From: Puniceicoccales bacterium
GTDB taxonomy: Bacteria; Verrucomicrobiota; Verrucomicrobiia; Opitutales; UBA953
Direction of reading: 5' to 3'
Assembly: GCA_031269335.1 (NCBI GenBank)
Contig: JAISZI010000050.1
Coordinates: 1-39,476, forward strand
DNA: 39,476 nt
Shown: in pieces, positions 26,838-33,281 of the stretch
How the letters are laid out: each line of letters starts with the position of its first letter
How positions within the stretch are numbered: the stretch's first letter is position 1
Notes under the pieces: model-generated
Seen by the model: only the letters and a program-made list of their open reading frames with translations
Told to the model about the DNA's origin: nothing
Databases searched by the model: none
Translations under genes and position numbers: made by a program

Positions 26838-29800
26838 TCATTTCTTTTTCACGGGGTCGGCGGGCTTGGCAGGCCATTTTTTGGGGGCGGCTTTCATGCG
26901 TTTGAGGACTTCTACGATGCCGCGTTCGAGTTGGAGGTCGCGTCCGGCGGCGGTGGATTTGGGATCGTTTTCGATTTCGATGTCGGGATCGACGCCGTGT
27001 CCTTCAATTATCCAACGTCCTTTGACGTCGTTTGTGCCGCGCAAGGGGACGGTTACTCGACCACCGTCAAGGAGGGGACCGACGCCGGAAATGCCGACGA
27101 CGCCGCCCCACGTGCGTTTGCCGATAAGAGGACCGATGCCTGCTGCGCGGAAATACCAGGGGAAGATGTCGCCGTCGCTTCCGGAGTTTTCGTTAATGAG
27201 GCAGACTTGGTGGCCGTGTCGGGCGAGGTTGGGGTAGGCACCGGGTATTTCTCCGGGACCGCCGAAGCGTGTGCCGAGGAGTTTTTGGTTGAGGCGCATG
27301 ATGATCCATTGGGAAATGTTGCCGCCGCCGTTGCTTCGGACGTCTATGATGAGGCCTTCTTTACGGAGTTGGGGATAATACCATTTTATGAATTCGTAGG
27401 CTCCGGCTGCGCCCATATCTGGAATGTGGAGGTAACCGACTCGTCCGCCGGTGGCTTTGGTAACGCGGGCGTGGCGATCCAGAACGAAGTCGAGGTAACG
27501 GAGATTTCGTTCGCTGGTGAGGGGGAGGCAAGTGACTTTGCGTGCGCCTTCCGCCGTTGGTTTGTTATTGAGCGTGAGGGTGATGGGGTCGGTGCGGTGC
27601 CGGAGGAGGCGGTAGGGGTTGTCGTTGCCGGTGAGCGGTTGACCGTCAATGGCGAGGACGTAATCGCCGAGGCGGGCATCAACACCGGGTTCGGTAAGGG
27701 GGGCGCGGTAACGCGGTTCCTGATTCTGACCGGAGTAGATTTGGGCGATGACGTAACGATTATTCTTAGGATCGAGTTCAAACCGGCAGCCGAGCAGACC
27801 GGTAACGGGGCGTTTCGGGTGAACGTATTCGCCGCCCTGGACGTAGGCGTGGCTGACGCTGAGTTCGCCAAGCATTTCGACAAGGACGTAGCTCAGGTCG
27901 GCGCGATGCGTGACGTGCGGGAGGAGGCTGCGATAGCGTTTCCCAATCGCTTCCCAATCATTGCCGTGGAGGTTTCGCACATAAAAGAAATCGCGGAATT
28001 TGCGCCATGCTTCGGTGAACATTTCGTTCCACTCGACGGCGGGGATGCTATCCGCCGCCATGCTTTCGGTTTTGACGGTTGTGACGGGGGCGCCCGGCCG
28101 CGGTTCAACACTTTTGAGACCGCCGTCGCTGGAAAAAACGAGGTGCGAGAAGTCTGGCGCGAGGGAATAACCGCCGACGCCGGAGAGAAGCCTCTGCTCT
28201 TTGCGTTCCTTCACGTTGTAGCACATCAGGTTAGGCGCACGTTCGGATTCGCGGCCATAATAACCGGCGGAATAGTTGACATAGTAAATGTATTTATCAC
28301 CGGCGGAGAGAGAGCCGTAGTTCTCGGAGGAAACGGGGAGGCGGACGACGCGGGATTCGATACCGTCCCAATCTATGGAGGTGCGGGGGCGGCTCGCTGC
28401 GGGAGATGCTTTTTTGGCAACAGGAGCCTTCCCGGCGGCTGGTTTCTTGTCTTTGGCGGCAGCGGAGGCGGGTTCTTTTTTGGCGACGCTTTTCTTATTG
28501 TCGGCGAGAGCGGTGGGACCGTCGTCAAATTCTGGTGCAAAGGGATTCGGCACGCTTTTGTTCAAGAGAATGGCGAAGATACCGGTATTGCGATTTCCGG
28601 CGAAATTCCATTCCACGCTGCTGTGTTGCGGGGCGAACTCGCGGCGGGAGAGAAACCAGAGGTATTTTCCGGAAGGGTCCCACACGGGCGAACTGGAGTC
28701 GAAGAGCGCGGGTGAAACCGGGCGAGTTTTGCGGGTGGTTATCTCGTGGACATAGAGGCGCGAAAAACCCTGCACATCAGATTCACTGTAAGCGAGGTAG
28801 TATCCACAAGGGGAGAAACGTCCGGCTGATGCGTATCCGCTGCGCGCTTTGTAGATGCGGACGGGTTCGCCGCGTTTGAAACGCACGCCGGTGCTTTTGT
28901 CGTTTTTACCTTTGCCGGCGGGCGAGTCGATGAGAGGGACGATCCAGAGATTTGCCCCGACATCAGTCACGGAAATAAATCGTCCGCAGGGGGAAAGCTG
29001 AAGGTCGTTGAGTTGGCGGTTAAATTTTTTGGTGAGCTGGACGGGGGCGTTTTCGCCTTTGGCGTCTTGAATCCAAATTTGCTCTTCGCCCGATTTATCC
29101 GAAATGAAGACGATGTTTTTGCCATCACGCGTCCAAACTGGACGGCGTTCGTGGGCGTCGCTCGAATTCGTGAAATTGCGCACGTAGCCCTTGCTCACGG
29201 GCACGGAAAACAAATCACCGCGGGCGGCGACGGCGACGCGCCCGGAACCCGGACCAGCGGCGAAATCTTCGATGCGCCTCGATACGTTAATGTGAGTCGG
29301 GCGAATCGCGAGGCCGTCATGAGGGACGCGAACGGCGATTTTGGTGAAACGCGTCGCCTCGTTAGTCGCCCGTGTGTCGAAGATGACAAGCTCACCCGCC
29401 AACTCGAAGACGATGCGTCCGGCGCCGTCGCCCGATGCCCAACGGACGTCCCACAGGCGTTCGTGGGTAAGTTGCGCAATTTGTCCGGTCTTGGTGTCGT
29501 AGGAAAAAAGGTTCAGCGTGCCTGTGCGGTCGGAAGCGAAATAGATTTTGTCGCCGATCCACACCGGGTCGCGTTCTGAGCGGCGGTTGTTGTCGAGGCG
29601 CTTGGTGGTCTTCGTTTTCAGGTCAAAAATGGTCAAGTATTGGGTCATGCCGCCTTGGTAACGTTTCCATGCCCGAAAATCGCGGAAATGCGGCGAATAG
29701 ACTAATTTCGTCCCGTCCGGCGAAAATTCGCCCGCGCCGGCGTGATGGGGACCGACTTTTTTCGGGAGTCCGCCCGAAAAAGGCACGGTGTAGAGCGTGC

Positions 29801-30260
29801 CGCGTTCCGTCACAGAATTGGAATCGCGCAGCGAACGGAAAAGGATGTTTTTACCGTCGGGCGTCCAACCATAGACGAGGTTGTCGGAGCCGCCTAATGG
29901 CGACATCGCCGCTCCGGAGGGGTAAAATGTCAGCTGCCGCGGCGTTCCTCCCTCCGCCGGAATCACATAAACTTGCTCGTCGCCGTCGTATTGCCCCGTG
30001 AAAGCTATCCATTTTCCGTCGGGTGAAAATCGCGGGAATATCTCCTGCCCGGGGTGCGCTGTGAGGCGAATGGCACTGCCGCCCTTTGCGGGTGCCTTCC
30101 AGATGTCGCCGCCATGACAAAAAGCAACGAAGTCCCCGTGGATATCGGGGAATCGCAACAGTTTTGTCGCTGACGCAACCGGTGTTTCCGCAACCGGCGC
30201 GGCGGCGGCACTTGCCACCGCTGCGGATAATATCAAAGAAGTGATGAAACTACGAAACAC
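26838..30260 (-). CDS. tricorn-type S41 peptidase with exported N-terminus
   Basis: An 1140-residue protein resembling tricorn protease, which trims oligopeptides. A signal peptide (residues 1-21, SLILSAAVASAAAAPVA) suggests periplasmic location. Beta-propeller repeats follow: FSPDGKWIAFTGQYDGDEQVY and other TolB-like blades to about 340, and a second propeller to about 740, interrupted near 590-630 by a Lys/Ala/Pro-rich linker. The C-terminal third holds the core domain, a PDZ-like domain (GLLGCRFELDPKN), and the S41 catalytic part with His near 803 (ELSVSHAYVQGG) and Ser near 1028 in NENSGSDGDIFPW. The start is GTG 30260; no ATG fits in frame. It runs directly into gene A of the HNH cassette, one base later. 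Confidence 0.93.
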   Translation of the reverse strand: MFRSFITSLILSAAVASAAAAPVAETPVASATKLLRFPDIHGDFVAFCHGGDIWKAPAKGGSAIRLTAHPGQEIFPRFSPDGKWIAFTGQYDGDEQVYVIPAEGGTPRQLTFYPSGAAMSPLGGSDNLVYGWTPDGKNILFRSLRDSNSVTERGTLYTVPFSGGLPKKVGPHHAGAGEFSPDGTKLVYSPHFRDFRAWKRYQGGMTQYLTIFDLKTKTTKRLDNNRRSERDPVWIGDKIYFASDRTGTLNLFSYDTKTGQIAQLTHERLWDVRWASGDGAGRIVFELAGELVIFDTRATNEATRFTKIAVRVPHDGLAIRPTHINVSRRIEDFAAGPGSGRVAVAARGDLFSVPVSKGYVRNFTNSSDAHERRPVWTRDGKNIVFISDKSGEEQIWIQDAKGENAPVQLTKKFNRQLNDLQLSPCGRFISVTDVGANLWIVPLIDSPAGKGKNDKSTGVRFKRGEPVRIYKARSGYASAGRFSPCGYYLAYSESDVQGFSRLYVHEITTRKTRPVSPALFDSSSPVWDPSGKYLWFLSRREFAPQHSSVEWNFAGNRNTGIFAILLNKSVPNPFAPEFDDGPTALADNKKSVAKKEPASAAAKDKKPAAGKAPVAKKASPAASRPRTSIDWDGIESRVVRLPVSSENYGSLSAGDKYIYYVNYSAGYYGRESERAPNLMCYNVKERKEQRLLSGVGGYSLAPDFSHLVFSSDGGLKSVEPRPGAPVTTVKTESMAADSIPAVEWNEMFTEAWRKFRDFFYVRNLHGNDWEAIGKRYRSLLPHVTHRADLSYVLVEMLGELSVSHAYVQGGEYVHPKRPVTGLLGCRFELDPKNNRYVIAQIYSGQNQEPRYRAPLTEPGVDARLGDYVLAIDGQPLTGNDNPYRLLRHRTDPITLTLNNKPTAEGARKVTCLPLTSERNLRYLDFVLDRHARVTKATGGRVGYLHIPDMGAAGAYEFIKWYYPQLRKEGLIIDVRSNGGGNISQWIIMRLNQKLLGTRFGGPGEIPGAYPNLARHGHQVCLINENSGSDGDIFPWYFRAAGIGPLIGKRTWGGVVGISGVGPLLDGGRVTVPLRGTNDVKGRWIIEGHGVDPDIEIENDPKSTAAGRDLQLERGIVEVLKRMKAAPKKWPAKPADPVKKK

Positions 30261-30426: not shown

Positions 30427-31212
30427 CTATTTTGGGTCAGGCAGATGTTTTTTAATGTCTGGGATTATGGCGTCCGCCCATATTTTATAGCCGCTTTGGC
30501 GCAAGTAAAGTCCGTCTTCGTAGAAAATGTCGTCTCGTTGAGAGCCGTTTTTATTAAGGAGCGATTCGTTAATGTTTTTGAAGAAGACGGTTTTATTATC
30601 GGCGAATACAGTGATAAGGGCGTTGATTTCGTCGTTTTTCTTACGCCGCAGGTCTGTTGCGGTTTTTCCTCGGGGAAAAATTGCCATCAAGATTATTTTC
30701 ACCGCTGGTTTACGGGATTTGATTTCTTGAATGATGGCTTTGATACCGGCGGCTACGGTGGCTGGCGGAACACCGCCGTAGGGGTTATTGTTTTCCATGG
30801 CGCCTATGGCGAGGACGATGACTTTGGGGTCGCCCTTCCCGTCAAGGTGCCCGTTTTGGATGCGGTAGAGGACGTTTTCAATGCGGTCGCTGGAAATGCC
30901 AAAGTTAACTGCTTTGAGAGGAGCAAGTTGCGCTTCCCAGATGGGCGCGCCGCCCGCTGGGAATGTCCACGCGTGCGTGAGGGTGTCGCCGAGGAAGAGG
31001 ACGTCGTAGCCGCCTTCTTTGGCGAGGTTGTTGTTTTGCCGGAAAGCGAATTGCCAGCCCGGATTGTCTTTCGGGACCGGTTCGGGGACATTGGCGGCGT
31101 GCGCGGCAACGGCGGCGAAAAGGAAGAGCACGCCGGCGGAGAGGGCGGAGACGACTGAAAATCGTGTCCGGCACGGATGTTTTGTAAGTAGTTGTCGTGG
31201 TTTTAGTTGCAT
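30427..31212 (-). CDS. SGNH/GDSL-like protein with degenerate active site
   Basis: A 261-residue exported protein closely similar in layout to the SGNH hydrolase at 33401-34159. The signal peptide spans about residues 1-40 (ending AAVAAHAAN) after a long basic n-region. Block I reads DVLFLGDTLTHAW where the paralogue has GDSL, so the nucleophile Ser is Thr. Block III reads AIGAMENNN in place of IGTNDN, losing the catalytic Asn. Block V reads YEDGLYLRQSGY instead of KDEIHLRAPGY, so the catalytic His is Tyr. The fold-defining segments are intact (NFGISSDRIENVLYRIQNG). It is probably a non-catalytic binding or scaffold protein. The start ATG 31212 is 13 bases after the namZ stop, implying one transcript. 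Confidence 0.85.
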   Translation of the reverse strand: MQLKPRQLLTKHPCRTRFSVVSALSAGVLFLFAAVAAHAANVPEPVPKDNPGWQFAFRQNNNLAKEGGYDVLFLGDTLTHAWTFPAGGAPIWEAQLAPLKAVNFGISSDRIENVLYRIQNGHLDGKGDPKVIVLAIGAMENNNPYGGVPPATVAAGIKAIIQEIKSRKPAVKIILMAIFPRGKTATDLRRKKNDEINALITVFADNKTVFFKNINESLLNKNGSQRDDIFYEDGLYLRQSGYKIWADAIIPDIKKHLPDPK

Positions 31213-32729: not shown

Positions 32730-33281
32730 TTACTCGGCACTTTTGGCACGTTCTTGGGCTTTTTCCCAAACGCTATCTTCGCCGAGACGGTCTGCGGCGG
32801 CTTTGAACGCGCCGAGATACTGTTTTGTTTTCTTCGCAGAGACGGCATTCAACTCTTTTTCGGTGGCGTGTTTAGCCACGAAACGGTTGAAGTCATACTT
32901 TTCGAGGATTTTGCTGACATCGGCACCTTTGACTGGTTCTTCGCCTTTATCAAGGAGTTCGTCATAGACCCACGCGGCGTGCATGGCGGCACCGAGGTCT
33001 TCTTTACCGACGACGTCGATCTGGGCAATGATGGGCGGAATGGCGGTTTTCGCTTCGGCGATGTATTGGAACCAACGTTTGTTGAGGTTGCCATAACCTT
33101 TTTTGCGGGCGCGATACGCCTCGTAGCTCGCTTTAGTCTCGCGGGCTTTTATGGTGATTGCCGAGATTTTTTTCTCGGCTGCCGGTGCTCCCTGTGCGGT
33201 GGTGACGACTGAAGTGTCGGTAGCGATGCCCCCAAGGACGACTGCGGCGGCGAGGAACGCTGTGATAGTTAGTTTTTTCAT
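32730..33281 (-). CDS. small secreted helical protein of unknown function
   Basis: A 183-residue product not recognised as any family. A Sec signal peptide covers about residues 1-31 (KKLTITAFLAAAVVLGG, Ala-rich site near QGAPA). The mature part is Lys/Ala-rich and mainly helical (ITIKARETKASYEAYRARKK, LGAAMHAAWVYDELLDKGE, KKTKQYLGAFKAAADRLGED). No Cys is present. It is monocistronic, with its own terminator at 32648-32688 and the intact SGNH hydrolase gene upstream on the same strand. A periplasmic or extracellular helical protein is as far as the sequence goes. Confidence 0.75.
   Translation of the reverse strand: MKKLTITAFLAAAVVLGGIATDTSVVTTAQGAPAAEKKISAITIKARETKASYEAYRARKKGYGNLNKRWFQYIAEAKTAIPPIIAQIDVVGKEDLGAAMHAAWVYDELLDKGEEPVKGADVSKILEKYDFNRFVAKHATEKELNAVSAKKTKQYLGAFKAAADRLGEDSVWEKAQERAKSAE

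Follow-up and report, generated by a model that had tools for sequence, protein, structure and literature searches.

The gene P0001 raises the question of what is gained by exporting an SGNH domain whose catalytic residues have been replaced, and whether its position directly behind namZ says anything about the answer. It lies on the reverse strand at 30427..31212 of the window, the whole stretch of 39,476 nucleotides of Puniceicoccales DNA that was analysed, and encodes a protein of 261 aa, assigned to the SGNH/GDSL pseudoenzymes by a PF13472 match, alignment and predicted fold. The frame is open from the ATG at 31212 to the stop at 30427. By eye, the N-terminus is a Sec-type signal peptide of about residues 1–39, with a helix at 19–39 in the predicted model, so that the protein would be exported to the periplasm or the outside of the cell. 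The remainder is one SGNH domain (Lipase_GDSL_2, PF13472; 59.2 bits against a cut-off of 32.9). The AlphaFold2 model, built from 32 aligned rows of window and locus proteins, has a mean pLDDT of 91.1, and the ten-residue blocks from 41 to 260 have values of 93–99, except for 81 at residues 141–150, just after block III. A search with Foldseek and VIA-align gives PAF-acetylhydrolase Ib as the top match (3dt8, Z 29.8, rmsd 1.5 Å over 206 residues), followed by sialate esterases from Bacteroides and Phocaeicola (Z 23.1–23.9); the OSK domain of Drosophila Oskar (5cd9, 5a4a) is also among the matches, with Z 16.4–16.5. The profile match over its cut-off and the SGNH fold of the model place P0001 in the SGNH fold superfamily, although a shared fold shows no function. 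An earlier sequence-only reading of this DNA had held that the fold, the export signal and the open frame are retained, and this agrees with the intact predicted fold, the signal peptide recognised by eye and a frame whose codon usage resembles that of the neighbours (mean log P −0.98 versus −0.90 to −0.98, with a reference built from three of the neighbours compared).

In MAFFT alignments with relatives, the S/G/N/D/H positions of P0001 are occupied by T77/G105/M139/D233/Y236. Thr77 (codon ACC, 30982..30984) takes the place of the block I nucleophile, Met139 (ATG, 30796..30798) that of the oxyanion Asn in block III and Tyr236 (TAC, 30505..30507) that of the general-base His in block V, all three codons being on the reverse strand, while Gly105 of block II, which belongs to the oxyanion hole, and Asp233 of block V are retained. 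Of the features expected of an active SGNH/GDSL hydrolase, then, the block II Gly is present, while the Ser, the Asn and the DxxH motif are missing. The same three replacements had been proposed by comparison with the paralogue P0002, and they are confirmed both against that protein and against the aligned intact relatives. Block III departs over three residues, reading G-A-M-E in place of G-T-N-D/N, with Ala138 and Glu140 flanking Met139, and a change from Asn (AAC or AAT) to Met (ATG) requires at least two base changes. Just ahead of the block V Asp there is a one-residue insertion (FYED versus FYD in P0007, the closest full-length relative). Between the block III Gly and the helix that follows, P0001 and P0007 align without a gap and over equal lengths, so that the Asn to Met change is not an obvious alignment slip. 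An alignment shift in block III was considered and rejected on these matching lengths; the loss of His is, moreover, independent of block III. In the SGNH lipase of Streptomyces rimosus, the variants Ser10Ala, Asn82Ala and His216Ala are each described as inactive, while replacement of Gly54 by Ala is reported not to abolish activity (PMC10779480). Since the equivalents of Ser10, Asn82 and His216 are all changed in P0001, hydrolysis has very likely been lost, as far as sequence and this analogy can tell. P0001 is thus, by its sequence and predicted model, an SGNH pseudoenzyme with the fold kept and the catalytic residues lost.

The triple change is unique among 115 distinct SGNH domains from 61 genomes (its own, 6 of the genus, 49 more of the family and 5 of the order). 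S-G-N-D-H is the reading of 107 of these domains and S-A-N-D-H that of one; four are truncated, and the three without Ser are P0001 (T-G-M-D-Y) and two from a second genus, g2 (E-G-N-D-R in G019 and D-G-N-D-H in G032). The domains were taken from open stretches of at least 70 aa in the fetched loci, with 4 of 119 rows dropped as contained in others; the stretches were picked by hand from hit lists and are no census of all SGNH genes, genes broken by stop codons are cut or lost, and the profile seed rows include P0001 and both Ser-less g2 genes. The set spans 56 of the 79 family genomes, the others contributing hit scores without residues. Five places in the genome of P0001 itself (2.5 Mb in 113 contigs) match PF13472, four of them over the cut-off. 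With its own genome counted in both sets, 43 of the 57 relatives' genomes have a match to P0001 at E ≤ 0.001, as do 71 of the 79 in the family at E ≤ 1e-15, and the best full-length homologues, one in G001 and one in its own genome, are 47% identical and intact. Among the 78 other family genomes there is no full-length homologue above that identity; G005 has a fragment, cut short by the end of its contig, with 51% identity over 89 residues, in which Ser and Gly are kept and the rest is missing. No related locus was confirmed by searching genome contigs, and a draw of 387 genomes from the phylum held nothing closer to P0001; ten of these genomes, its own included, match it at E ≤ 1e-45, and the seven loci that this draw added contain 10 SGNH domains besides those of the window, all reading S-G-N-D-H. 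The same substitutions, which the sequence-only reading had proposed to look for in orthologues next to namZ, were not found, there being no close orthologue in the 78 other family genomes. Orthologues with intact Ser, Asn and His, which it had named as evidence against itself, are found in part: the full-length homologue nearest to P0001 (G001, 47%) has all three residues, but stands in another neighbourhood, and the tree does not place it as the orthologue.

Some other SGNH genes of these genomes have features of their own. Five proteins of 454–654 aa contain two SGNH matches in one open frame (L168 in G019, L169 in G009, L170 in G060, L182 in G012 and L289 in G197), and among their domains covered by the analysis there is no report of one in which Ser, Asn or His is missing. 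In L174 and L175 (G011 C1 and C3) the SGNH matches contain internal stop codons and may be real pseudogenes, and G011 C1 has several SGNH matches close together.

In a tree of 57 rows, P0001 falls within a nine-row group of SGNH proteins of its genus with support of 97/94, in which the branching order is not settled and the tree program warns of long branches meeting. Its end branch measures 1.15, versus 0.56 for the closest homologue. The SGNH gene 2.2 kb upstream on the same strand, SGNH2 (P0002, 33401..34159), retains all of the S/G/N/D/H residues, but groups with proteins of G004 and G003 at 100/100, apart from P0001, to which it is 36% identical over the alignment and 41% over the matched part. 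Its earlier description as the intact paralogue is right in that it is intact and, by alignment and tree, a distant paralogue, but it is not the sister of P0001; a recent tandem duplication of P0002 as the source of P0001 is ruled out by the tree and the 36% identity. P0002 has, instead, a recurrent neighbour of its own. Encoded at 32730..33281 on the reverse strand is a protein of 183 aa that has no Pfam match at E ≤ 0.01 and, by eye, starts with a signal peptide, and a relative of its gene directly follows the SGNH2 relative in both G004 and G003, so that the pairing is found in three genomes of the genus. These relatives lie at L040:4572-5513 and L041:5097-6340, with two in a row in G003. 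On sequence grounds, P0002 is neither the sister nor the recent source of P0001.

Between the two SGNH genes lies namZ (P0003, 31226..32554, reverse strand), an exo-N-acetylmuramidase by family (PF07075 and PF20732), whose stop codon is 13 bp before the ATG of P0001. Tight spacing is confined to this pair, the other gaps upstream of namZ being 119 and 175 bp. Because a scan for promoters and terminators does no better than shuffled sequences (2 promoter-like and 6 terminator-like sites versus shuffled means of 2.3 and 8.1), it is the spacing that argues for a namZ–P0001 operon. On the other side, 166 bp downstream of P0001 and on the same strand, a Tricorn-like protease is encoded at 26838-30260 of the window (PD40, Tricorn_C1, PDZ_Tricorn and Peptidase_S41), with an export signal by eye. 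While namZ is found in 56 of the 57 genomes of relatives, P0001 is recognised in its own genome only. The 20 namZ loci fetched from relatives, eight of them from the same genus and all extending about 0.5 kb or more past namZ on its downstream side, contain no SGNH gene in the fetched flanks and none of the other genes of the window's neighbourhood. Among named genomes, the best 80 of 591 confirmed namZ loci were taken with flanks of up to 6 kb, as far as the contigs extend, two of them being the same contigs as G001 and G003 (JAITXH010000154.1 and JAITPT010000005.1); in four of the 80 (one of Hoylesella, one of Prevotella and two of Marinifilum) an SGNH gene lies in these flanks, at a distance of 1.2 to 4.5 kb. 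Directly beside namZ there is no SGNH gene in either the 20 or these best 80. The functional link to NamZ that had been read from the shared operon thus has a real 13-bp spacing, but in these loci no conserved namZ–SGNH neighbourhood, behind it, and the tight arrangement looks local and not like a conserved module.

The two other Ser-less SGNH genes belong to genus g2 of the same bacterial family, at L061:7233-8171 (G019) and L075:675-1517 (G032). In G032 the Ser-less gene is directly upstream of an intact SGNH gene whose end is cut by the contig, while in G019 the two are separated by an opposite-strand gene; the gene orders around this same opposite-strand gene differ between L061:5659-8171 and L075:1-1517. 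The pair forms a two-row clade (100/99) inside a g2 group, separate from P0001. Comparing G019 with G032, dN is 0.026 and dS 0.42 for the intact copies, while for the Ser-less copies dN is 0.45 and dS 2.2, which is near saturation, giving a dN/dS of about 0.2; the Ser-less copies therefore show an older divergence than the intact ones, with dN well below dS. At E ≤ 1e-40 the G032 protein matches 31 places, spread over 27 of the 79 genomes of the family and all within the loci of the 115-domain set, and among them no Ser-less g2 gene beyond those of G019 and G032. Like P0001, these genes have lost Ser near an intact paralogue; unlike it, they keep Asn, have Glu or Asp in place of Ser and have Arg or His at the His position. 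It is conceivable, though on balance doubtful, that secreted SGNH esterases of this family have repeatedly become non-catalytic proteins with a binding or partner role, in at least two lineages (g1 and g2) and each time near an intact copy. If true, the dead genes of g1 and g2 would be a set of esterase-derived ligand-binding proteins.

Whether P0001 is kept or decaying can be judged from where it departs from its relatives. Among 26 columns conserved in at least 90% of the intact relatives it departs at six, three of which are catalytic, two beside catalytic residues and one elsewhere; it has three non-catalytic departures, where the median intact relative has 0 and the one with the most has 8. 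In the 11 columns conserved in at least 98%, it departs at exactly three, all catalytic (hypergeometric p 0.06). This enrichment is weak, with p from 0.04 to 0.10 over four thresholds and few columns. The differences from the closest relative by codon position (0.45, 0.31 and 0.66, the third positions being near saturation) follow a pattern similar to that of the intact pair L036–L037 (0.35, 0.29 and 0.59), and dS to the nearest relative, L036, is saturated (NG86). A neutral simulation was started from the present P0001 sequence, with half of the substitutions transitions and with indels assumed at 1/15 of substitutions, two thirds of them frameshifting. At the divergences tried, the joint chance of an open frame and of at least three of the five catalytic residues changed, given at least one, reaches its peak of about 0.008 at 0.08 substitutions per site (0.180 × 0.042, versus 0.047 × 0.147 at 0.15), and the indel rate lowers it further; few runs stay open at 0.3 and 0.5, and the conditional values there come from a handful of them. 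Plain decay is less likely than selection acting on the scaffold while, or after, activity was lost, and the gene may be maintained by selection. A recently inactivated gene that is now drifting, its open frame and scaffold dating from the time when it was an enzyme, is rather unlikely. That no close orthologue shares the changes and that the branch is long would fit such a relic, as would the third of the simulations in which no stop codon arises during a neutral phase of 0.05 substitutions per site. However, in so short a phase the probability of three of five catalytic residues being changed, given one, is about 0.015, and the two base changes of Met139, the altered residues around it and the in-frame insertion near block V also tell against a relic. 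The long branch and the three non-catalytic departures fit relaxed constraint as well.

The reading preferred here, held with about even confidence, is that of an SGNH pseudoenzyme which is exported and binds a ligand in its former catalytic cleft. A duplicated and exported esterase similar to PAF-acetylhydrolase would have been its ancestor, and hydrolysis would have been lost by replacement of the nucleophile, the oxyanion Asn and the general base while the scaffold remained under constraint. The product would most likely be a non-catalytic binding protein of the periplasm or the extracellular space, in which the former active site may hold an acylated sugar or a lipid-like ligand. Other roles would tie the protein to a particular partner. 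The heterodimer that PAF-acetylhydrolase Ib, the closest solved fold, is known to form from its alpha1 and alpha2 subunits (1fxw) suggests that P0001 could be the dead half of a pair with an intact SGNH paralogue, acting as its non-catalytic partner or regulator, and an intact gene on the same strand 2.2 kb upstream, together with the two g2 genomes in which a Ser-less gene adjoins an intact one or is one gene away from it, points the same way. This is nevertheless improbable, for P0001 and P0002 are only 36% identical and the recurrent neighbour of the intact gene is the 183-aa gene, not P0001. The proposal that P0001 regulates NamZ, or binds its products or other acylated muropeptides, draws on the 13-bp spacing on a common strand and on the N-terminal export signals seen by eye on both proteins; its support ends at this local adjacency, P0001 is recognised in one genome when namZ is in nearly all, and in the flanks fetched the namZ loci of relatives have no SGNH gene and those of named genomes a few distant ones, so that this role too has a poor chance. 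Least probable is an enzyme of changed chemistry, with Thr77 as nucleophile, an unusual base and Asn141 or Asn142, which sit two and three residues past Met139, as the oxyanion Asn. Thr does carry a hydroxyl, Asp233 and Gly105 remain, and other oxyanion arrangements are described in SGNH families (Gln in SASA, Arg in PatB1; PMC9487903), but block V has no His, all three positions are altered and a single Ala replacement is reported to be enough to inactivate the S. rimosus lipase (PMC10779480).

Known relatives of P0001 bear on the preferred reading, that of a ligand-binding pseudoenzyme. The catalytic subunits of mammalian PAF-acetylhydrolase Ib (1wab, 1fxw) resemble it in sequence (E 7e-21 to 5e-20) and in fold (Z 29.2–29.8) and share the context of blocks II and V, but they have Ser, Asn and His where P0001 has Thr, Met and Tyr, and P0001 has a signal peptide besides. 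That dead SGNH domains acquire new roles is documented in insects and plants. The insect homologues of PAF-acetylhydrolase are described as SGNH proteins with hydrolytic activity entirely lost (PMC3905857), and the SGNH region of Drosophila Oskar is termed an RNA-binding domain (PMC6191285); these proteins are eukaryotic, and their likeness to P0001 lies in being non-catalytic SGNH proteins, with no close sequence relation established. In Arabidopsis, At1g54030 is reported to have Gly in place of Ser and to have taken on a new role in the cell, and of 116 GDSL sequences of A. thaliana 3 are called dead (PMC4757993); three more plant GELP proteins are labelled pseudoenzymes (PMC8490726). Like P0001, At1g54030 and the other plant GDSL pseudoenzymes are described as members of a large GDSL family that have lost catalytic residues, but At1g54030 is a plant protein with one catalytic change, while P0001 has three. 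GDSL sequences without catalytic residues are said to be common in general, and in the passages of the open-licence literature that were searched no bacterial exported SGNH pseudoenzyme is named, which says little about whether others exist. With several intact copies in the same lineage, a bacterial protein of this kind offers a tractable case of how esterase clefts become binding sites. A precedent for a cleft used in binding is CtCE2 of Clostridium thermocellum (CtCel5C-CE2), a CE2 esterase whose active site is reported also to bind cellulose non-catalytically (PMC2661963); it is described as keeping its esterase activity and being fused to a cellulase, unlike P0001, but an esterase cleft that binds polysaccharide favours, by analogy, a ligand-binding role for the cleft of P0001.
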